Source: a virus
Direction: 5' to 3' (one strand)
Virus record (IMG/VR): IMGVR_UViG_3300037189_017217
Coordinates: 1 to 21,866 of that record
Length of the DNA stretch: 21,866 bases
Shown here: positions 1 to 21,866 of the stretch, piece after piece
How positions within the stretch are numbered: position 1 is the first letter of the stretch
Layout: each line of letters begins with the position of its first letter
Program-made: the position numbers and the translations under genes
The notes under the pieces: model-generated
Told to the model about the DNA's origin: nothing
The model's database searches: none
Seen by the model: only the letters and a program-made list of their open reading frames with translations

Positions 1-892
1 CCATTCGGTATCCCATATAAGCACTACCTGTTGATTGATTCATACTAGGAAATGTTGTTGCATTTTTAATGGCAGCTTTATGATGACCGTGTATTGGTTG
101 TGTTCCGCTTTCTTTTACAAATTGATGTGCTCTCATTTCTCTTACCGCCTTGTTAACATCTTTTATTTTTTTAGCAACCTTTTCTGGATACTGTGATAGA
201 TAGTGTGCCACCAAGTCAAAAAACGGCCGACCAGAAACTAGCGTTTCAGCAGGAACACCTGCGGCTTTTGTAAATGCATCTCTATCACCGCTACGAACTG
301 CGTTACGCAATTCAGTAGCCGAACTTAACCTTGGAGTTTCTTGTTGTTTAATCTCGTCAAACTTATAAAATCCATGTGCGGCTTGTACTCCATTATATTG
401 TTGAATTGTTTTAGTAACCCACGCTTCGTCAGTAAAACATACTAAAGTTTTAGCATCTGGATGTGATTTGAAACAATGGCTAGCAAGTGTTAGCCAACTT
501 TGTTCAGCCATTAAATGTCCTTCGATGCCTGGCCATATTGTTTTCATAGCCTCAATTTTAATTTCATAAGGCAACGGATCTTTTGGGCCTTGCGTATCTT
601 TGTTTGTTCCTACATACCAATATGGCAATTTGCTAGCCATTTGCCAAGCGGCTTTATGACCCTTATGTGGAGGGTTAAAACGACCAAATATAATACCAAT
701 TGATGAGCCGGTTGTTTTTTCTTTATCTTTTGCAATAGCTTTTGCTTGCGATATAACTTTAGTCTCTGGTTTAGCAATTGCACCAACTTCTTTTTCAGCA
801 TTTTTGGCAACAGATTTCCCGCCCATCTTAATGAGGTCTTCAATACCATGAGCTATACTGCCGTACCCTTCAAACATTTCTCTTAATTTCAT
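1..892 (-). CDS. Cytidylyltransferase-like nucleotidyltransferase (partial; C-terminus outside window)
   Basis: My own minus-strand translation gives 297 codons with no stop, so the gene runs off the left edge. After about 60 charged, Ala/Lys-rich residues there is a Rossmann nucleotidyltransferase signature, GRFNPPHKGH (residues 70-79), the HxGH-type nucleotide-binding motif. SSATELR at about 190-196 matches the ISSTxxR-type motif of the NMN adenylyltransferase/cytidylyltransferase superfamily. Such enzymes transfer AMP or CMP from an NTP onto a phosphorylated acceptor; phage members are often assigned to NAD salvage, but the substrate cannot be read here. The start ATG shares its A with the TAA of the upstream gene (TAATG), so translation is probably coupled. 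The first residues, MKLREMFEG, resemble the N-termini of the next two genes upstream. The superfamily is clear; the reaction is not. Confidence 0.85.
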   Translation of the reverse strand, partial: MKLREMFEGYGSIAHGIEDLIKMGGKSVAKNAEKEVGAIAKPETKVISQAKAIAKDKEKTTGSSIGIIFGRFNPPHKGHKAAWQMASKLPYWYVGTNKDTQGPKDPLPYEIKIEAMKTIWPGIEGHLMAEQSWLTLASHCFKSHPDAKTLVCFTDEAWVTKTIQQYNGVQAAHGFYKFDEIKQQETPRLSSATELRNAVRSGDRDAFTKAAGVPAETLVSGRPFFDLVAHYLSQYPEKVAKKIKDVNKAVREMRAHQFVKESGTQPIHGHHKAAIKNATTFPSMNQSTGSAYMGYRM

Positions 893-2109
893 TATGGCAC
901 CCATTGCGGCAATACTTCACCGCTCTTATGTTGTACATCGTGACGCGGAACAAATTTTGTATGCATATCACCACTTGTATCGTACTGTACCCATCCTTCT
1001 GAATTAAGCACTTTTATTTCTGGAGGTGCCATTTCGAGTTGAGATAGCAATTGATTTTTAAGACCCATAATTTGTTTGACATATTTAAACACAATAGTTA
1101 CACCTGCAGGCACTATGTTTATGCGATTTCTAATGTTGGATTTCATGCTATCGCTTTTAACCATACCAGCCGCACCTTGCTCAATCCAGTTCATAAAGTC
1201 ATCGCCTACATTAGCAAGTTGCCCGCCTTTAGACTTTTCATTCATGTAGCGATAGATAATACCTTTAAAATTTGAAACTTTAGGAATAGGTGCAAGAAAT
1301 GCTTCAATAGTTGCTTTATCTTTAGTAAGATCTTGTTCTATCTTATCTATTGCTTTAGTATCTATCTTTGGTTGTTCCATAGCATAGTATGGACTTAATA
1401 CAATTAACTCTGTAGTAGGAGTCATATATTTTGTAAAATCTGAAACAGGTTTTTGTGCAGTATCAGGAGCTCCAAATGTATCAAAGCTACCATGTGCCGC
1501 AACCATAGCTTGTGCTCCATCTGCAATACGCTTACCAAGTGTAGAATCAACACTTATATGATATTGTGTTTTGCTTTTTAAATTTGGATTTAGTTCATAA
1601 ACGCCATTTACTTCTTCGGGCGGTTGTGTAAACAATCCATCGGCATAAAAATAAATTTCTTGGCCTTTTCTTGGAACTTTAGTTGCTGTTTTAAATATTT
1701 CGTATAAATGACTAAATTCAGTTGCGAATTGCTGACGTTCTGCTTGCTTCTCCGGAGGAAGCCCTGCTGTGTCACCACTTTTATTTAGAATGAAATTATA
1801 GATACCACGGACACTGGTAAAATCACTTATATCACTAGTGCCTGTACCACCTCTACTCCAGCCATTATGTCCGCATAGGATAAACTGACCATCTTTAGTA
1901 TATCCCCAGTAGATTTGAGGAGCACCATCCCATTTAAATCTTGTATGTTTTGCACTTGCTGATCCTGCCATACGTACATGTTCAAGGGCTTTGATTACCC
2001 CAGAGGTTCCGTGCAAAAATGCAAGATCTTCTACGTGATTAAACGCCCGTCCTACTTTGGCCTTAACGGGCTCATTGGATTCACGAACAAAGAGCTCTCT
2101 TAATAACAC
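892..2109 (-). CDS. Conserved phage protein with KWDG / EGWV ligase-like motifs (405 aa)
   Basis: Starts at GTG (2109) after an AAGGAT ribosome site, two bases past the previous stop. From memory it belongs to a family found in T4-like marine phages that carries a KWDGAP motif (possibly DUF6267, not verified). Visible motifs are K59-W-D-G-A-P64, a strand ending in ADGLFT (156-161), then YELNPN (171-176), MVAAHG (202-207), SEGWV (370-374) and KFVPR (385-389). The order KxDG ... aromatic-rich strand ... EGxV ... K is that of motifs I, III, IV and V of DNA/RNA ligases and capping enzymes, with K59 as the candidate adenylated lysine. The spacing between I and IV is longer than in small ligases, so this is inference. 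It lies between an unknown protein and a nucleotidyltransferase in a cassette preceded by a late promoter box. The N-terminus MLLRELFVRE resembles those of its neighbours. Confidence 0.85.
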   Translation of the reverse strand: MLLRELFVRESNEPVKAKVGRAFNHVEDLAFLHGTSGVIKALEHVRMAGSASAKHTRFKWDGAPQIYWGYTKDGQFILCGHNGWSRGGTGTSDISDFTSVRGIYNFILNKSGDTAGLPPEKQAERQQFATEFSHLYEIFKTATKVPRKGQEIYFYADGLFTQPPEEVNGVYELNPNLKSKTQYHISVDSTLGKRIADGAQAMVAAHGSFDTFGAPDTAQKPVSDFTKYMTPTTELIVLSPYYAMEQPKIDTKAIDKIEQDLTKDKATIEAFLAPIPKVSNFKGIIYRYMNEKSKGGQLANVGDDFMNWIEQGAAGMVKSDSMKSNIRNRINIVPAGVTIVFKYVKQIMGLKNQLLSQLEMAPPEIKVLNSEGWVQYDTSGDMHTKFVPRHDVQHKSGEVLPQWVP

Positions 2110-2111
2110 GG

Positions 2112-2483
2112 TTAATCCTTATACTTGCCATCAGCGATATGTTTGCTAACATCTTCTTTCATCTTTTTGCAGACTTTTACGCATGTTTCTTCGTCTAACG
2201 ATTGGGGCAATTCGCGAATGGGATATTGTTTAATATATGCTTCGTAGCTTTTTTCTACAGCAGGTTTAAAGATTGATGAATTAAACGACTGATTTGCTTT
2301 AGATCTATCCACACATTTTGCAATACTTGGATATACGTGGCGACGATACACATTATCGTCGTGATTCATAAAATGTACTAAATCTTCAATAAGGTCATAG
2401 TTGATTTCACGGCCATTCTCAGTAGGATTTACAAAATCTAAATCTTTGAAATGTCTATTTTCTAATAATTCACGTATACGCAT
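2112..2483 (-). CDS. Conserved phage protein of unknown function, first gene of late cassette (123 aa)
   Basis: First gene after the late-type promoter box at 2533-2540. The protein is 123 aa, charged and probably helical, with no membrane segment or signal peptide. It starts MRIRELLEN, like the two genes behind it, and contains a DD-VYRRHVYP segment (about 42-51) and PIRELPQSLDE (about 88-98). It has the feel of a small family seen in environmental T4-like phages, but I cannot attach a function. The ATG is preceded by GGGCTTTATA with no good purine-rich ribosome site, odd for the first gene of a transcript. Its TAA is two bases before the GTG of the 405-aa gene. The context suggests late expression and possibly virion packaging; nothing in the sequence shows enzymatic activity. 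Confidence 0.8.
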   Translation of the reverse strand: MRIRELLENRHFKDLDFVNPTENGREINYDLIEDLVHFMNHDDNVYRRHVYPSIAKCVDRSKANQSFNSSIFKPAVEKSYEAYIKQYPIRELPQSLDEETCVKVCKKMKEDVSKHIADGKYKD

Positions 2484-2532: not shown

Positions 2533-2540
2533 TATTTATC
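2533..2540 (-). promoter_or_regulatory. T4-type late promoter box GATAAATA
   Basis: On the minus strand the sequence reads GCGATAAATACTTC, one mismatch from the T4 late -10 TATAAATA, in the 67-bp gap before the 123-aa gene and 50 bp from its ATG. The identical octamer occurs at 16313-16320 and 20738-20745 before structural genes. A perfect 10-bp palindrome, CGCAATTGCG (2540-2549), abuts the box on its upstream side. No -35 box is seen, as expected for late promoters recognised by a phage gp55-like sigma with a clamp. Assignment is by motif and position only. Confidence 0.5.
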
Positions 2541-11192: not shown

Positions 11193-11702
11193 TTATCCCA
11201 CTTGTTCTACCTTGACTCCTGATTGTTCAAGGAACAACACACCATCACTACTACGATAGCTGTCACGATAGAATACATTACGAATACCGCTTTGAAATAT
11301 AAGTTTTGCACAGTCCATGCATGGCATATGAGTAACAAACAATACAGCCCCATCACCTGATTCTGTACTCTTCGCAAGTTTAGCAATAGCATTAGTTTCT
11401 GCATGTAACACCTCTGGTTTAGTTTTTAATCCGTATCGAACTTTTCGCCCAACATCGCCTCGGAATTCTTCATAAGGATATTGCTTGTCAAAATCTTCAG
11501 GACTGATCCAACCGCCCGCACCATTATCCCATATCTTGTCTTCACAGTCGTTATCCCACCCTGCCGGCATGCCGTTATAACCAATAGAGATAATTCTATC
11601 GTCTTTAACAATAATGGCACCAACGTGTAAACGGCGAGCATGAGAAAGCTCTGCGAATGTCTCCGCAGTTTTCATGTATGCATCAATTAGTCTTTCTTTC
11701 AT
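11193..11702 (-). CDS. dCMP deaminase (deoxycytidylate deaminase)
   Basis: Start chosen at the ATG of 11702, which overlaps the upstream TGA as ATGA and has GGAA about 9 nt before it; an ATG five codons earlier has no properly spaced site. 169 aa. Zinc and catalytic motifs are H100-A-E102 and P127-C128-M-D-C131, and GYNGMPAG (41-48) is typical of the T4-type family. It deaminates dCMP to dUMP, feeding thymidylate synthesis for phage DNA replication; T4-type enzymes are hexameric and controlled by dCTP/dTTP. It is the last gene of the clamp-loader operon and ends at the shared terminator. Confidence 0.95.
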   Translation of the reverse strand: MKERLIDAYMKTAETFAELSHARRLHVGAIIVKDDRIISIGYNGMPAGWDNDCEDKIWDNGAGGWISPEDFDKQYPYEEFRGDVGRKVRYGLKTKPEVLHAETNAIAKLAKSTESGDGAVLFVTHMPCMDCAKLIFQSGIRNVFYRDSYRSSDGVLFLEQSGVKVEQVG

Positions 11703-12307
11703 TTTAAATTTTTCCATTCCTGTATTAATGTATTAATACACGTTTTAATTTCTTCAAAATTTTTAGGTTTTGGCGTAATTAAAAAATTACTATCAAAAGT
11801 TTTTATATTTTCGTATACTAGTCTTAAATTGCATTTTATTTTACACATTTCTGTTTGGTGAAATAGGACAGCGTTTATGTCAAATTTCATTCTTTTTAAA
11901 TTAATGGGAACATTTATATTTTCCAAATCATAATTTTCATTTTGAAAATAGTGCCATCTGTTCACGGTGTTGGCTATATATTCGCTAGATATTTGATCAA
12001 TTATATTGTTTCTAGTAATACCTATTGTAAAACATTCATTATTATCTATCATACGCTGGATATGATTAGGATATTTTTCTTTAGTTCCTACTATAATTTT
12101 TAAAATATAATTATTACTAGTTTTTGAAAATTCAGAAAATTCAGTTAGACTTCCAAGATTTTGATTAGGTTCTTGAAAATATTTCAGATCTTTTCTTATA
12201 TTTTGAATATAATAAGCAAACGGAGTAGATCCGCTCCTTGGCCCAGAAATTATTACAATTGGTAATTTTGTTATTTCTAGGATCAATAAGTCAAGATCTT
12301 GGGCCAT
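11699..12307 (-). CDS. Sulfotransferase-like P-loop protein (202 aa)
   Basis: The ATG at 12307 is preferred; a GTG one codon earlier is possible. 202 aa. IVIISGPRSGST (17-28) matches the phosphosulfate-binding loop of PAPS-dependent sulfotransferases, and GITRNNIIDQISSEY (96-110), with R99, D104 and S107, matches the second (3'-phosphate) motif. Phage homologues are known from marine T4-like genomes, where their substrates are unknown. The acceptor could be a host surface glycan or a virion component. The gene is visibly more A+T-rich and richer in Ile/Asn/Lys codons than the clamp loader and deaminase around it. Together with its place inside a replication operon, this suggests acquired cargo. 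The ribosome site is poor, and its stop overlaps the deaminase start. Confidence 0.75.
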   Translation of the reverse strand: MAQDLDLLILEITKLPIVIISGPRSGSTPFAYYIQNIRKDLKYFQEPNQNLGSLTEFSEFSKTSNNYILKIIVGTKEKYPNHIQRMIDNNECFTIGITRNNIIDQISSEYIANTVNRWHYFQNENYDLENINVPINLKRMKFDINAVLFHQTEMCKIKCNLRLVYENIKTFDSNFLITPKPKNFEEIKTCINTLIQEWKNLK

Positions 12308-12312
12308 CACTA

Positions 12313-13227: not shown

Positions 13228-13465
13228 TTTTAATCCTGTAATGTTGTTTCATTCCATAATGCTCTGTAATAGCATTGATACTTCTTTCAATGGTTCCTTC
13301 TACCATACTACTATCGTAAGTAGTATATGCAATATGTCTAATCTCGTTTGTAGATTCTAACACATTAATAATGTCTTGGACAATCAACTCGGCAAACTTT
13401 TCATGATCAAAGTTTGAGTAAGGGTTATAACATTCTATTGCTAATTCTTTAATTCTTTCGTTCAT
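13190..13465 (-). CDS. Conserved small phage protein (91 aa)
   Basis: 91 aa. The N-terminus MNERIKELAIECYNPY followed by FDHEKFAELIVQDIINVL resembles a small protein type widespread in phages (M-N-x-R-I-K-E-L ... F-D-x-E-K-F-A-E-L-I-V). Its function is unknown. The ATG overlaps the previous stop as ATGA, and the 3' end overlaps the clamp-loader gene by 38 nt, an unusually long overlap in this otherwise short-overlap genome. The C-terminus is basic (KNERIMGRKVSSK). Coexpression with the clamp loader suggests early or replication timing. Confidence 0.82.
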   Translation of the reverse strand: MNERIKELAIECYNPYSNFDHEKFAELIVQDIINVLESTNEIRHIAYTTYDSSMVEGTIERSINAITEHYGMKQHYRIKNERIMGRKVSSK

Positions 13466-16282: not shown

Positions 16283-19200
16283 ACTGTTATCCTATCGTTT
16301 CTAAATATAAGGTATTTATCGATACTCAAGTTGTCCACCGTATCGATTATGTACCTATCTGCGGTATAATCCAATGTTTTGAAATCAAAACCGCTGTGTG
16401 ATATGTTTAATAATATATCTGCACTAGTTCCTGCTTTACAGTAGCATATAGGCACAGCCAACACAAATCCTAATTCTTCTTTAGTTCCTGGCTGTATACT
16501 ACGCATCCATAATGGCAAATAGTTTCTTTCTGTAGATCCTACTGCCTTTAATCGCTGTCTCCATAAGCTAATACTATTTGGAAAATATACATTGGTATTT
16601 GAATTTGATGCTTGATATCCAGTATTGTCTACTGTAAGTATAGGCTCTGGGCGATTCAATCCAGGTTCGTCGCGTGTCAGAACATCTATACTTCTACTCC
16701 AGAAGTCCATACTGTTGTCTGATGTTATATTGTCAGATGCTGCTCCATTGAATTTAATTTGTGTTGGAAGATGTTTTCCATTAGATTCAGCAAGATCTTT
16801 CATTTCAACATAAACAACTTCATATGCAGTTAATTTAGTACCGGGAATAATTGCACTTGCAGATTTAACTGCACCAAATGCAAATCGTTTTCGTTTGTGA
16901 TTTAGTGCAATTGCTGAAATATATTCTGTGGCTGATTTTGTTTCTATACCAGCATATACTAACATGTCTAAATTAATTTGAATTCCAAAATTAGTATCGT
17001 GTACCCGATATATACTGCTTGGAGTAAAAATTGAATTGTCGTTGATAAACGCTTTCCATGTTAATCTTTGAGATTGTTTTAAAAATGGTTTAGTCCTAAT
17101 ATTACTGTAACCAATGCTATTGGGTGTTAATATTAATAATGTAAATTGTCTAGTAGTAGCACTATAATCGTATTGATCTTTGGCTTGTATAGTAAAAACA
17201 TATTTTCTATCAAATGTACTAGAATCGTTATCAAATGTTGTAAACTTTTTAGTGGCTACATGCGGTGGTTGATCATAAAAACGTGTTAACCCTAACTTAC
17301 CAGTTATTGCATTATAAAATTGAGATACTTTGCCAGTGATTTCCCCGTCTGAGTTTAAAGTCAACCCTGGAGGTAGTTTACCAGATATCAATTTATATTG
17401 AACTACTGCATCAGTAATAGTACTGGATGCTGAAACTTTTAGTGTTGATACTAAATTAGCATTTATTGTTCCTAAATTACTATCACTATTCCATGTAATA
17501 ACACTATCAATTTCTCCAATGATACCAATGGTAAATGTTCTTGAAGTTCTTGCAGAGTCGCCTTTATCACCTAATCTAATCGCAGTAATGGTAAAATTAT
17601 AATTTTTTGTAATGGCTGGTTGGTAAGGAACAGCTCCGTATATTGTAGCAGTTTGTAAATCAAAAGAAGTACCAGCAGGTAGTGTACTTCTACTCCCAAT
17701 ATAGAATGAAGTGCCGTTTGGAATATCAATTGCTAAAGAAGAAACTACATAAAGACGATACCGATCATTTCCTATATCATTTACTGTTATGACACGATAT
17801 AATTGATCAGTTGCGCCGTCGACAATGCCTTCAAATACAATATAATAATTAGGAAGAATAGTTCCTTTTACATTTGTCACTGTTATATAGTGACTATTTT
17901 TAATATTATCAGTGGGATCAACATTGACACTGGTACATGTTACTTCTTGATTTATATATTCTAAATTATAATATACATTACTTGGGTCGTAGAGTATTAT
18001 TGGTATTGTTAGATAATTGTTGGCTCTAAACAATCCAATATTGGTATTAGTTAGCCAAGCAGGTTGTCTTAAGTAAGTAACATCAGCTGTAAATAATCCT
18101 CCGGCAAATCCGTCGCTTATAGTTGAGTCAGCTCTAAATTGATCATCACCTACAACAAATATTTTAAAGATACGTTGTGCATAATGATTACCGTCTGTAA
18201 CTGTTACTTTAAATTGATAATTAACATTTAAACTAGATGGTCTAGAATAGGGTAAATTATAGTCGTAAAATACTTGATCATAAACATAGCTATCAAAACC
18301 ATTTGACGGTCTTAATGCAAAATCATAAGATGCTGAATCATAGTATCCTTCGTCATATGTTCCTGTGCCGTCGGCAGGTTTAATCTTTGGTGCCGGCAAA
18401 ATATAACCTGAAATAAATCCGTTACTATCCATAGTAACACCTGGCGGCAATTCTCCGTCACCGCTAGAAATAAAATATGTTAATTTTTGCCCAGCCGCAG
18501 TATCGAGATCAAATGCCTCTATTTGAAAATCAATATATGTTTTATCTAGTACATATAATTGCTCATGCACGCCAATGGCTATTGATCCTGCTTCGGTTAT
18601 AAATGTAGGTAAGTCTGGCCCGTCTACTAATATTGAAAATGTCCTATCTGAAACACTATATCCTTCTTTGGATGCACGTATACAAAATGTAAAAAGCGTA
18701 TAGTCCACTACTTCAAACGGTGTGCCAATTAATCTATTTCCGCTGATACGTAATCCTGGCGGCAACTTACCAGAAATAACTGAGTATGTAACTAAAAAAT
18801 CTATATTAACAACAACCGTAGCATTATTATTGCCTGCAAGTATTGTAATTATATCACCGTCTTGATAACCCACGCCTGGATTGTTTATACTCACCGCTTG
18901 AAGGTAACCATTAGGGCTAAACACTTGTATAGTCATCCCTGTGCCTCTGCCACCCGTGGTATAAAATGATCCACCGTTGATAGGATAACCGGTACCAGCA
19001 TTAGCAATCTGCAATGTTATTACTCCGTCTCCAGCAGTAGGTAATTGTTGATTGAAAACAGTTTGTTCACGTATAAATGCTTCGTATACTGTACCAGTAC
19101 CTGGATGGCTTACAGGTTCTATTCCTGTAAAAGGGCCTGCCCTGCTACCAGTTGCTGTTGCGGTGAATATAGTATTAATGGCATTAGACTTTGCACCTAT

Positions 19201-20737: not shown

Positions 20738-20745
20738 TATTTATC
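20738..20745 (-). promoter_or_regulatory. T4-type late promoter box GATAAATA before tail fibre gene
   Basis: Minus strand TTGATAAATACTATA, overlapping the stop of the peptidase gene and 19 bp from the fibre ATG, so the leader would be only about a dozen bases with the AGGAG site in it. Third identical copy of the octamer. Confidence 0.5.
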
Positions 20746-21595
20746 AAGGGTTATTAACCGCACTGATTAGCCAAAAATCACTGCTCATACTGGTGTTTTT
20801 AATGACATCATAGGGCATATAGAAGTAGCCATTGTCACCCCAGCCTGTTCCCCAGCTATTACGCACAATAAAACGTCCGTTGGCCTTGCCTGTTACTGGC
20901 ATGGTATCGTCATATCCAACAATACAAACAGCATGGCCGCCAAGTAGCTGTTCAGTGACTGTATTAGGAAAAGGCATCATGCCAGACCCTGCTTGCCCGT
21001 GGGGTATATCTCCCCATGCACCTTCAAAACTAGCATACACGCTAAATCCAATAACAACTGGATTGCCTGCCGCCACGGCATTCTTAACAGCATTAAAATC
21101 TGTACAACGTTGGTAGCCAGTTACTTTGCGTTTTAGTGCATCGGTATAGGCCGCGGTTGCGGGTTTAGTGGCAAATTTATTTTCAATGTAGGGCCATAGG
21201 TTTTCTAATGGTGCACCTTTAGTATAGCATACTTTAATGCCGTCACGGATATACGCACCGGCGTCATAACGTACTGATCCTTCTAATACACGCTCTTCGT
21301 AATAGATAAACAAGCGACTAATATCTCGTCCTTTTGTAGGATTTGCTTTACGTTGTATTAATTCAATTTGTCCCGCAATGGCATTTCCGGTACAAGATCC
21401 AATTTGACCTTGATCTTCAATAGTACTGGCATATTGCCTTAAGTCAATTCTCGGTGCCAGTGTTACAGGAGCAAGTTGATAAATGTGATCTCTAGCATCT
21501 GGTGGATCAGGTAGCCAGCGATACTTGCCTAAAAAACTGGGATTAAAAATTCCCGATACATTGATTGTTGATAAGTTTACGCCTGCTGTTTTCAT
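20744..21595 (-). CDS. Papain-like (C1 family) cysteine peptidase (283 aa)
   Basis: Start set at the ATG of 21595, which has GGAG 6 nt upstream and lies just after the LamG stop; an upstream in-frame ATG (21637) would overlap that gene by 32 bases. 283 aa. The catalytic set of C1 peptidases is complete: Q62 and C68 in DQGQIGSCTGNA (61-72), H221 in GGHAVCIVGYDD (219-230) and N246 in NSWGTGWGDNGYFYMPY (246-262). Residues 24-50 (KYRWLPDPPDARDHIY...) are a short pre-domain; a long inhibitory ERFNIN-type propeptide and a signal peptide are absent. Similar peptidases occur in bacteria and some large phages. Placed between a lectin-like protein and a tail fibre, it may be a virion protein that trims a fibre or attacks host surface proteins. 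Confidence 0.92.
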   Translation of the reverse strand: MKTAGVNLSTINVSGIFNPSFLGKYRWLPDPPDARDHIYQLAPVTLAPRIDLRQYASTIEDQGQIGSCTGNAIAGQIELIQRKANPTKGRDISRLFIYYEERVLEGSVRYDAGAYIRDGIKVCYTKGAPLENLWPYIENKFATKPATAAYTDALKRKVTGYQRCTDFNAVKNAVAAGNPVVIGFSVYASFEGAWGDIPHGQAGSGMMPFPNTVTEQLLGGHAVCIVGYDDTMPVTGKANGRFIVRNSWGTGWGDNGYFYMPYDVIKNTSMSSDFWLISAVNNP

Positions 21596-21605
21596 ATTCG
21601 CTCCA

Positions 21606-21866
21606 TTATAATCCAAATCTTGTATGCTCTGCCGCATAGTTGTTAGTAATATCTGCTTGACTTAATGCTCTGTTATAAACACGCACTACGCTCAATTTTC
21701 CGCCCCAATTATTAGTAGTCTCTTGGTCCCAACGACTCATCACATTGTATCCAACAACGTTTGCTGTTCCAACTGGGCTGTCAGTAGTAGCATTTATTAA
21801 CGTTTGATTTACATATAGTTCAAGGGTAGTACCGTCATAGGTTCCAACTACATGGTACCATGCTCC
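21606..21866 (-). CDS. LamG/concanavalin-like domain protein (partial; C-terminal 86 aa)
   Basis: An open frame enters from the right edge and ends at TAA (21608-21606). The visible 86 residues begin GAWYHVVGTYDGTTLELYVN, the typical W-x-H-V-x-x-T-Y-D-G strand pair of LamG/Laminin_G_3 jelly-roll domains. The frame ends with WGGKLSVVRVYNRALSQADI and NNYAAEH, the usual closing strand and helix of that domain. Such domains bind glycans and are frequent at the tips of phage fibres. The N-terminal part, and thus the size and anchoring region, are outside the window. Confidence 0.88.
   Translation of the reverse strand, partial: GAWYHVVGTYDGTTLELYVNQTLINATTDSPVGTANVVGYNVMSRWDQETTNNWGGKLSVVRVYNRALSQADITNNYAAEHTRFGL

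Follow-up and report, generated by a model that had tools for sequence, protein, structure and literature searches.

Three neighbouring genes of an uncultured bacteriophage encode proteins that begin with the same short peptide and are otherwise mutually unrelated. We consider it likely that this shared N-terminus is a divergent capsid-targeting propeptide of the T4 type with the consensus M-[KR]-[LI]-x-E-[LMI]-[FL]-(0-2)-E/[AGSN] (here and below, a slash marks the putative cut), as judged from sequence. Visible in the sequences themselves are the tag, its conservation and distribution, a late promoter box, a prohead protease and an L-x-E site in gp23. The idea of capsid targeting stems from a sequence-only reading of the same DNA and is supported by a genome-wide motif scan and by the checks on protease and gp23; presence in virions, cleavage and injection are not shown here.

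The DNA analysed (the window) is a 21.9-kb phage fragment from IMG/VR, on which nearly all long open reading frames (ORFs) lie on the minus strand. It also encodes PhoH, a clamp loader, a ClpA/B-like protein and DnaJ, as well as two structural virion proteins with relatives in the jumbo phages GAP32, CBB and PA5oct. The source phage is an uncultured member of a T4-related jumbo lineage near these phages. The cassette of interest comprises three adjacent minus-strand genes which abut or overlap. Its first gene (2112..2483, ATG start) encodes a 123-aa orphan with the N-terminus MRIRELLENRH, the second (892..2109, GTG start) a 405-aa ligase-like protein of the DUF6267 family (PF19782, 8.2e-14) starting with MLLRELFVRES, and the third (2..892, ATG at 892) a cytidylyltransferase/NMNAT-like nucleotidyltransferase which starts with MKLREMFEGYG and is cut by the contig end. 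For the third gene, an in-frame ATG further upstream (MGAIMKLREMF) was rejected: relatives either lack it or have different residues there, and MKLREMF is thus the conserved start. On the minus strand, the tags occupy positions 2460..2483 (MRIRELLE, putative cleavage LLE/N), 2080..2109 (MLLRELFVRE, VRE/S) and 869..892 (MKLREMFE, MFE/G). The proteins were claimed to share M-x-[LI]-R-E at their N-termini and nothing else, and both parts hold: the similarity is far above chance, and the mature parts belong to PF19782 (8e-14), to the cytidylyltransferases (PF01467/phrog_3041, 1.5e-15) and to no known family in the case of the orphan.

As a chance background, we took internal positions of a related jumbo phage, which match the motif at 1.65e-4 per position. 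Among the candidate N-termini of the window, three are tagged where 0.006 would be expected (P ~3e-8). MNERIKEL-type small proteins (one at window position 13465, two in the relative) carry the motif in a different register and were not counted.

The tag is also strongly conserved. In an alignment of 14 sequences of the 123-aa protein, M1, R2, I3, E5, L6, L7 and E8 are invariant; this tag was followed by alignment, N-terminus survey and AlphaFold model. The 405-aa protein (14 sequences, down to 39% identity) keeps residues 1-5, 7 and 10 (M1, L2, L3, R4, E5, F7, E10), while position 8 can hold V, I, L, F or Y and the linker past residue 11 varies in length. Beneath these fixed residues synonymous codons change: Glu5 is GAA or GAG, Phe7 is TTT or TTC, and Leu6 is encoded by TTA, TTG, CTC, CTT or CTG and replaced by Met in one relative. 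Because the residues are fixed while the codons vary, selection acts on the tag peptide, with codons and downstream linker free. In none of the 37 distinct N-termini from the three families is the last Glu of the tag followed by anything other than A, G, S or N; the nucleotidyltransferase, for which 15 distinct N-termini were found in relatives, has nothing but G, S, N or A after Glu8. AlphaFold predicts a short helix at residues 3-7 of the 123-aa protein with pLDDT below 50 at residues 9-11, and pLDDT is likewise below 50 for residues 1-29 of the 405-aa protein. Such low model confidence around the tags is as expected for a detachable leader.

A genome-wide scan for further M-x-[LI]-R-E-[LM] N-termini had been suggested, and it was carried out as a blind test of the exact motif on IMGVR_UViG_3300023174_000036 (G001), a 356-kb relative. 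It returned the orthologues of the three cassette genes and only two more. One of these encodes a 79-aa protein between the portal and prohead protease genes, in the head-core cluster. Members of this family start with M[IL]LRE[LF]-like sequences in 42 of 45 head loci (gp23-containing loci with enough upstream DNA), and apart from them no motif match was found among the 39,570 ATG/GTG codons of the head loci. The 79-aa protein has the LRELF stretch but no L-x-E site beside it, which counts against the capsid-targeting reading. The other additional match is a 331-aa protein which is homologous to CBB_298 (4.9e-5) and also matches a PHROG labelled virion structural protein; CBB_298 itself was identified in CBB virions by mass spectrometry with ten unique peptides (PMC5259590). 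With the wider motif M-x-[LIF]-R-E-[LIM], seven N-termini were found in G001 against 0.13 expected from internal positions (P 1e-10), one of the seven being a heme oxygenase with its native motif. A refuting result named beforehand, the motif on clearly early cytoplasmic proteins, did not occur: among metabolic genes, this heme oxygenase is the sole near-match. Its MSLREIT lies outside the exact motif, with LRE...T inside its own Pfam domain (PF01126), and was not counted. A phage-encoded heme oxygenase is an observation in its own right (L061, G001 290114-290656, minus strand). MKAFVIILQES in G001 was also left out; it belongs to a family 25 glycosyltransferase and is not clearly a separate tag.

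In T4, the capsid-targeting sequence (CTS) measures 10-19 aa and is cleaved at L/I-X-E, with residues 4 and 7 serving targeting and residues 8 and 10 serving processing (PMC9026906). LLE-N and MFE-G of the cassette had been proposed to offer a glutamate comparable to this site. In the window, the strict T4 form [LI]-x-E holds for LLE-N alone, the other two tags reading V-R-E-S and M-F-E-G; two of the three tags thus speak against an exact T4 site. At the putative site relatives have IRE, LRE, IFE or LFE, and P3 across the tag families varies among L, I, V, M, F and Y. LLE and these four variants fit [LI]-x-E, VRE and MFE only loosely; judged by these sequences, the hydrophobic P3 is looser in the tags than in T4. 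The second suggested check was also borne out in the phage lineage. A gp21-type protease is encoded in G001 (PF03420, 6.5e-27), and a matching cleavage motif is present in another head protein, as gp23 N-termini show an L-x-E site. Protease and gp23 were seen in relatives only, the window fragment not including this region. Where gp23 N-termini could be recovered among 80 related loci, they carry RKYL-x-E-[STA] with a free middle residue, directly ahead of AGATSAGN, the conserved beginning of the mature protein, and gp23 of CBB has MLRE-S at the corresponding position. This site conforms to the L/I-X-E rule of T4.

A late-type promoter box had been noted ahead of the cassette, and this is confirmed: GATAAATAC is found on the minus strand at 2540, with GATAAATA(C) at 2533..2540, 56 nt upstream of the cassette. 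The T4 late box is TATAAATA, to which GATAAATA is close. The strict TATAAATA box is absent from the window and from the region upstream of gp23. All 13 related loci examined retain GATAAATA 52-65 nt ahead of the 123-aa gene in spite of diverged flanks. In G001, 23 of its 26 copies are followed by a gene start at a distance of 8-160 nt, compared with a mean of 5.3 for permuted 8-mers, and the genes behind it include the portal operon and very long structural-type proteins. Tagged genes are among them as well, namely those for MRATEFITE-G (DUF6321), MRAKEFLILE-A (M23 peptidase) and MRVIDILSE-A, N-termini even nearer to that of T4 IPIII. The prediction of late cassette expression from a conserved GATAAATA box is met as far as promoter sequence can tell. 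Two more copies on the minus strand of the window, at 16313..16320 and 20738..20745, precede a 376-aa gene (16282-15152) and a 455-aa gene (20719-19352), respectively. Over the whole of G001 (loci L045-L064) GATAAATA acts like a late promoter box, and it might serve to delimit the late regulon of the jumbo-phage lineage.

In the proposed mechanism, the GATAAATA box would drive late expression of the cassette. The amphipathic stretch of the tags (hydrophobic-x-E-hydrophobic-hydrophobic, like YQEFI of T4 IPIII) would then bind to the growing prohead core, and by this binding the three proteins would become enclosed when the gp23 shell closes around it. The gp21-type protease would cut past the Glu that ends the tag and free the mature proteins, namely the ligase-like enzyme with its KxDG motif, the cytidylyltransferase/NMNAT-like enzyme and the small helper. 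These would stay alongside the DNA inside the head until their ejection into the next host. For this phage, core binding, packaging, cleavage, injection and the purpose of the cargo are all inferred, and no virion proteome is known to us either for the phage itself or for close members of its lineage.

The closest known counterpart is the CTS of T4, the gp21-cut propeptide of IPI, IPII, IPIII and Alt. Like the cassette tag, it is a short N-terminal stretch common to unrelated proteins, with a hydrophobic-x-E-hydrophobic-hydrophobic core, a terminal Glu followed by a small residue, and late expression; a relative of the window phage also has the gp21-type protease and a gp23 with an L-x-E site. 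The two differ in sequence (M-x-[LI]-R-E-[LM] in the window versus MKTYQEFIAE), in the looser P3 and in their cargo, which consists of small basic proteins in T4 and of enzymes (ligase-like, nucleotidyltransferase) in the window. The phiKZ-like phage SPN3US also has N-terminal propeptides on packaged and ejected proteins, a prohead protease that cuts after Glu, and paralogues with identical N-terminal 15 residues. Its propeptides, however, mostly comprise 79-127 residues, the motif is A-x-E (S-x-E in phiKZ), and the lineage is a different one.

Evidence from virions comes from the cyanophages, whose T4-GC190 protein is homologous to the nucleotidyltransferase. T4-GC190 was detected by mass spectrometry in virions of S-SM1 (PMC3037559), and the corresponding enzymes were found in virions of S-CREM2 (three peptides, PMC10665884) and S-SZBM1 (two peptides, PMC9146016). 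Their N-termini are MKKFSAFLNE-A, MKNFSSFLTE-A and MRFRQFIIE-A, respectively, and by sequence MRFRQFIIE is intermediate between MKLREMFE of the window and MKTYQEFIAE of T4. NMNAT-like proteins were similarly reported for S-SCSM1 and S-CBWM1 virions. The three cyanophage enzymes share the HxGH region and a CTS-like N-terminus with the window protein, and in S-SM1 and S-SZBM1 the gene adjoins a DUF6267-like gene. Unlike in the window, the tag is nearer to that of T4 (MKxFxxFLxE-A) and the DUF6267 neighbour is untagged. This untagged neighbour is missing from the S-SZBM1 virion list, and CBB_73, an untagged cytidylyltransferase of CBB, is not among the 55 virion proteins of CBB (PMC5259590); both are natural contrasts that fit tag-directed packaging. 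Some homologues count against the reading: the P-HM1 nucleotidyltransferase lacks the tag, MKTLKELL of HTVC008M has no E-small, and the DUF6267 proteins of cyanophages are untagged. The first two cases show that loss or change of the tag is possible in this enzyme. The N-terminus of T4-GC15, the other core virion protein of the cyanophages, does not resemble a tag. The authors of the cyanophage proteomes left open whether such proteins are cargo or co-purified owing to their abundance, and in the portions of the cyanophage virion reports that could be consulted no link between N-terminus and packaging was found.

With a motif of only some five residues, its recurrence might be a coincidence or a by-product of translation-start or codon bias. 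We regard this as highly improbable and rule it out by the excess of N-termini over expectation in G001, the lack of any other match at start codons of related head loci, and the changing codons beneath a fixed peptide. A docking function outside the head deserves more weight, though it also seems unlikely. The tag could attach its proteins to the tail tube, baseplate or hub instead of the prohead core, so that they travel with the tail. Several tagged proteins of relatives are indeed cell-wall enzymes (M23 peptidase, tail-lysozyme-like, LysM, PG-binding), as would be expected of enzymes for tail entry. Yet wall-degrading activity is compatible with head cargo, given the precedent of T7 gp16, a wall-degrading protein which is stored in the head and then ejected. 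The best conserved tagged protein, moreover, is encoded between portal and prohead protease, and the tags end in E-small like the sites of gp21, an enzyme that acts in proheads.

Slightly more doubtful still is the idea that the tag docks onto a cytoplasmic partner common to the three enzymes and thereby joins them in a late complex that never enters the virion. The ligase-like protein and the nucleotidyltransferase do seem to work as a pair, being adjacent in cyanophages and fused in some relatives (L039-L042). This fused protein, though, retains a single tag at its N-terminus, as a targeting signal would; the tag is also found on the head-core-cluster protein and on the homologue of the virion protein CBB_298; and homologous tagged enzymes are present in virions. 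The reading as a capsid-targeting propeptide is retained.

The functions of the presumed cargo are predicted only. In the 405-aa protein, K59-W-D-G (residues 59-62, 1924..1935 on the minus strand), a candidate adenylation-lysine motif I of KxDG type, is invariant in the 14-sequence alignment. Structural alignments placed DNA or RNA ligases in all 50 matches listed (Z 5.0-6.0, rmsd 3.8-5.4), the Foldseek E-value being only 0.13. Sequence and model suggest a ligase-like covalent nucleotidyltransferase with no activity known. DUF6267 (PF19782) resembles the ATP-dependent DNA/RNA ligases in its invariant KxDG and in having them as nearest solved folds, and differs in the lack of a known activity and in a fold match that is moderate (Z about 6). 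A tblastn search of named phages with the 405-aa protein gave no match; relatives in named phages were reached via the homologue in Methylophilales phage Melnitz. A PDB sequence search with the DUF6267 profile returned nothing useful. The nucleotidyltransferase matches phrog_3041 (1.5e-15) and just passes the PF01467 cut-off (21.1 bits versus 21), and contains FGRFNPPHKGH with the HxGH motif. For the 123-aa protein, the best structural matches (Z 5.7, small ribosomal and other helical chains) were not informative, and its role as a small helper is merely proposed.

In L039-L042, DUF6267 and the nucleotidyltransferase form one protein of 984-999 aa with the tag MFLRELFVNPKK-x-L-x-E, whereas in L028-L032 they are separate and each has its own tag. 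This fusion points to a joint function. About 250 residues of unassigned sequence precede DUF6267 in the fused protein. As to the purpose in the host, one can only guess at functions such as the repair of nucleic acid cut by the host or the renewal of NAD. These named cargo enzymes, fused in some phages, would act in the first minutes of infection.

Tag variants occur on other cargo in relatives, including M23 peptidase, tail-lysozyme-like, PG-binding, LysM and kinase/phosphatase-like proteins. These wider patterns were set after examples had been seen, and their P values are descriptive only. With somewhat less assurance than for the cassette itself, we favour the view that a degenerate N-terminal packaging code, M-(x)2-3-[EDQ]-hydrophobic-hydrophobic-(x)0-3-E/small, is common to widely differing phages of the T4 superfamily and loads varied enzymes into heads for delivery: ligase-like and nucleotidyltransferase pairs, wall hydrolases and kinase/phosphatase-like proteins. 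If true, the code would predict virion cargo from sequence and explain the recurring cytidylyltransferases in cyanophage virion proteomes, where tag plus protease site would offer a sequence rule to tell cargo from contamination. It would extend T4 capsid targeting to jumbo and marine phages.

Several side observations were also made. In L063 (G001 328084-328785 and 334703-335350, minus strand), the DUF6321 protein (MRATEFITEG) and the M23 peptidase with PG-binding domain (MRAKEFLILEAT) have N-termini strikingly near that of T4 IPIII. Three further genes in L076/L077 (G004 17776-24983, plus strand) have MRL-x-[ED]-[LI]-[FL]-E-A N-termini and encode a tail-lysozyme/PG-binding, a PG-binding and a HAD/polynucleotide-kinase-like protein. 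The window itself encodes a papain-family cysteine protease (PF00112, 4.5e-15; 20744-21637, minus strand) among tail-fibre-like genes, and a 203-aa ORF (11699-12310, minus strand) whose GPRSGSTP stretch recalls P-loop sulfotransferases, without a Pfam match. Finally, seven virion proteins of CBB (CBB_536, 537, 548, 549 and 551-553; L106, L107) have similar N-termini of the type MLPF-x-x-x-x-x-Y-[AG]-N, another shared N-terminal label, perhaps with a role in tail or whisker assembly.
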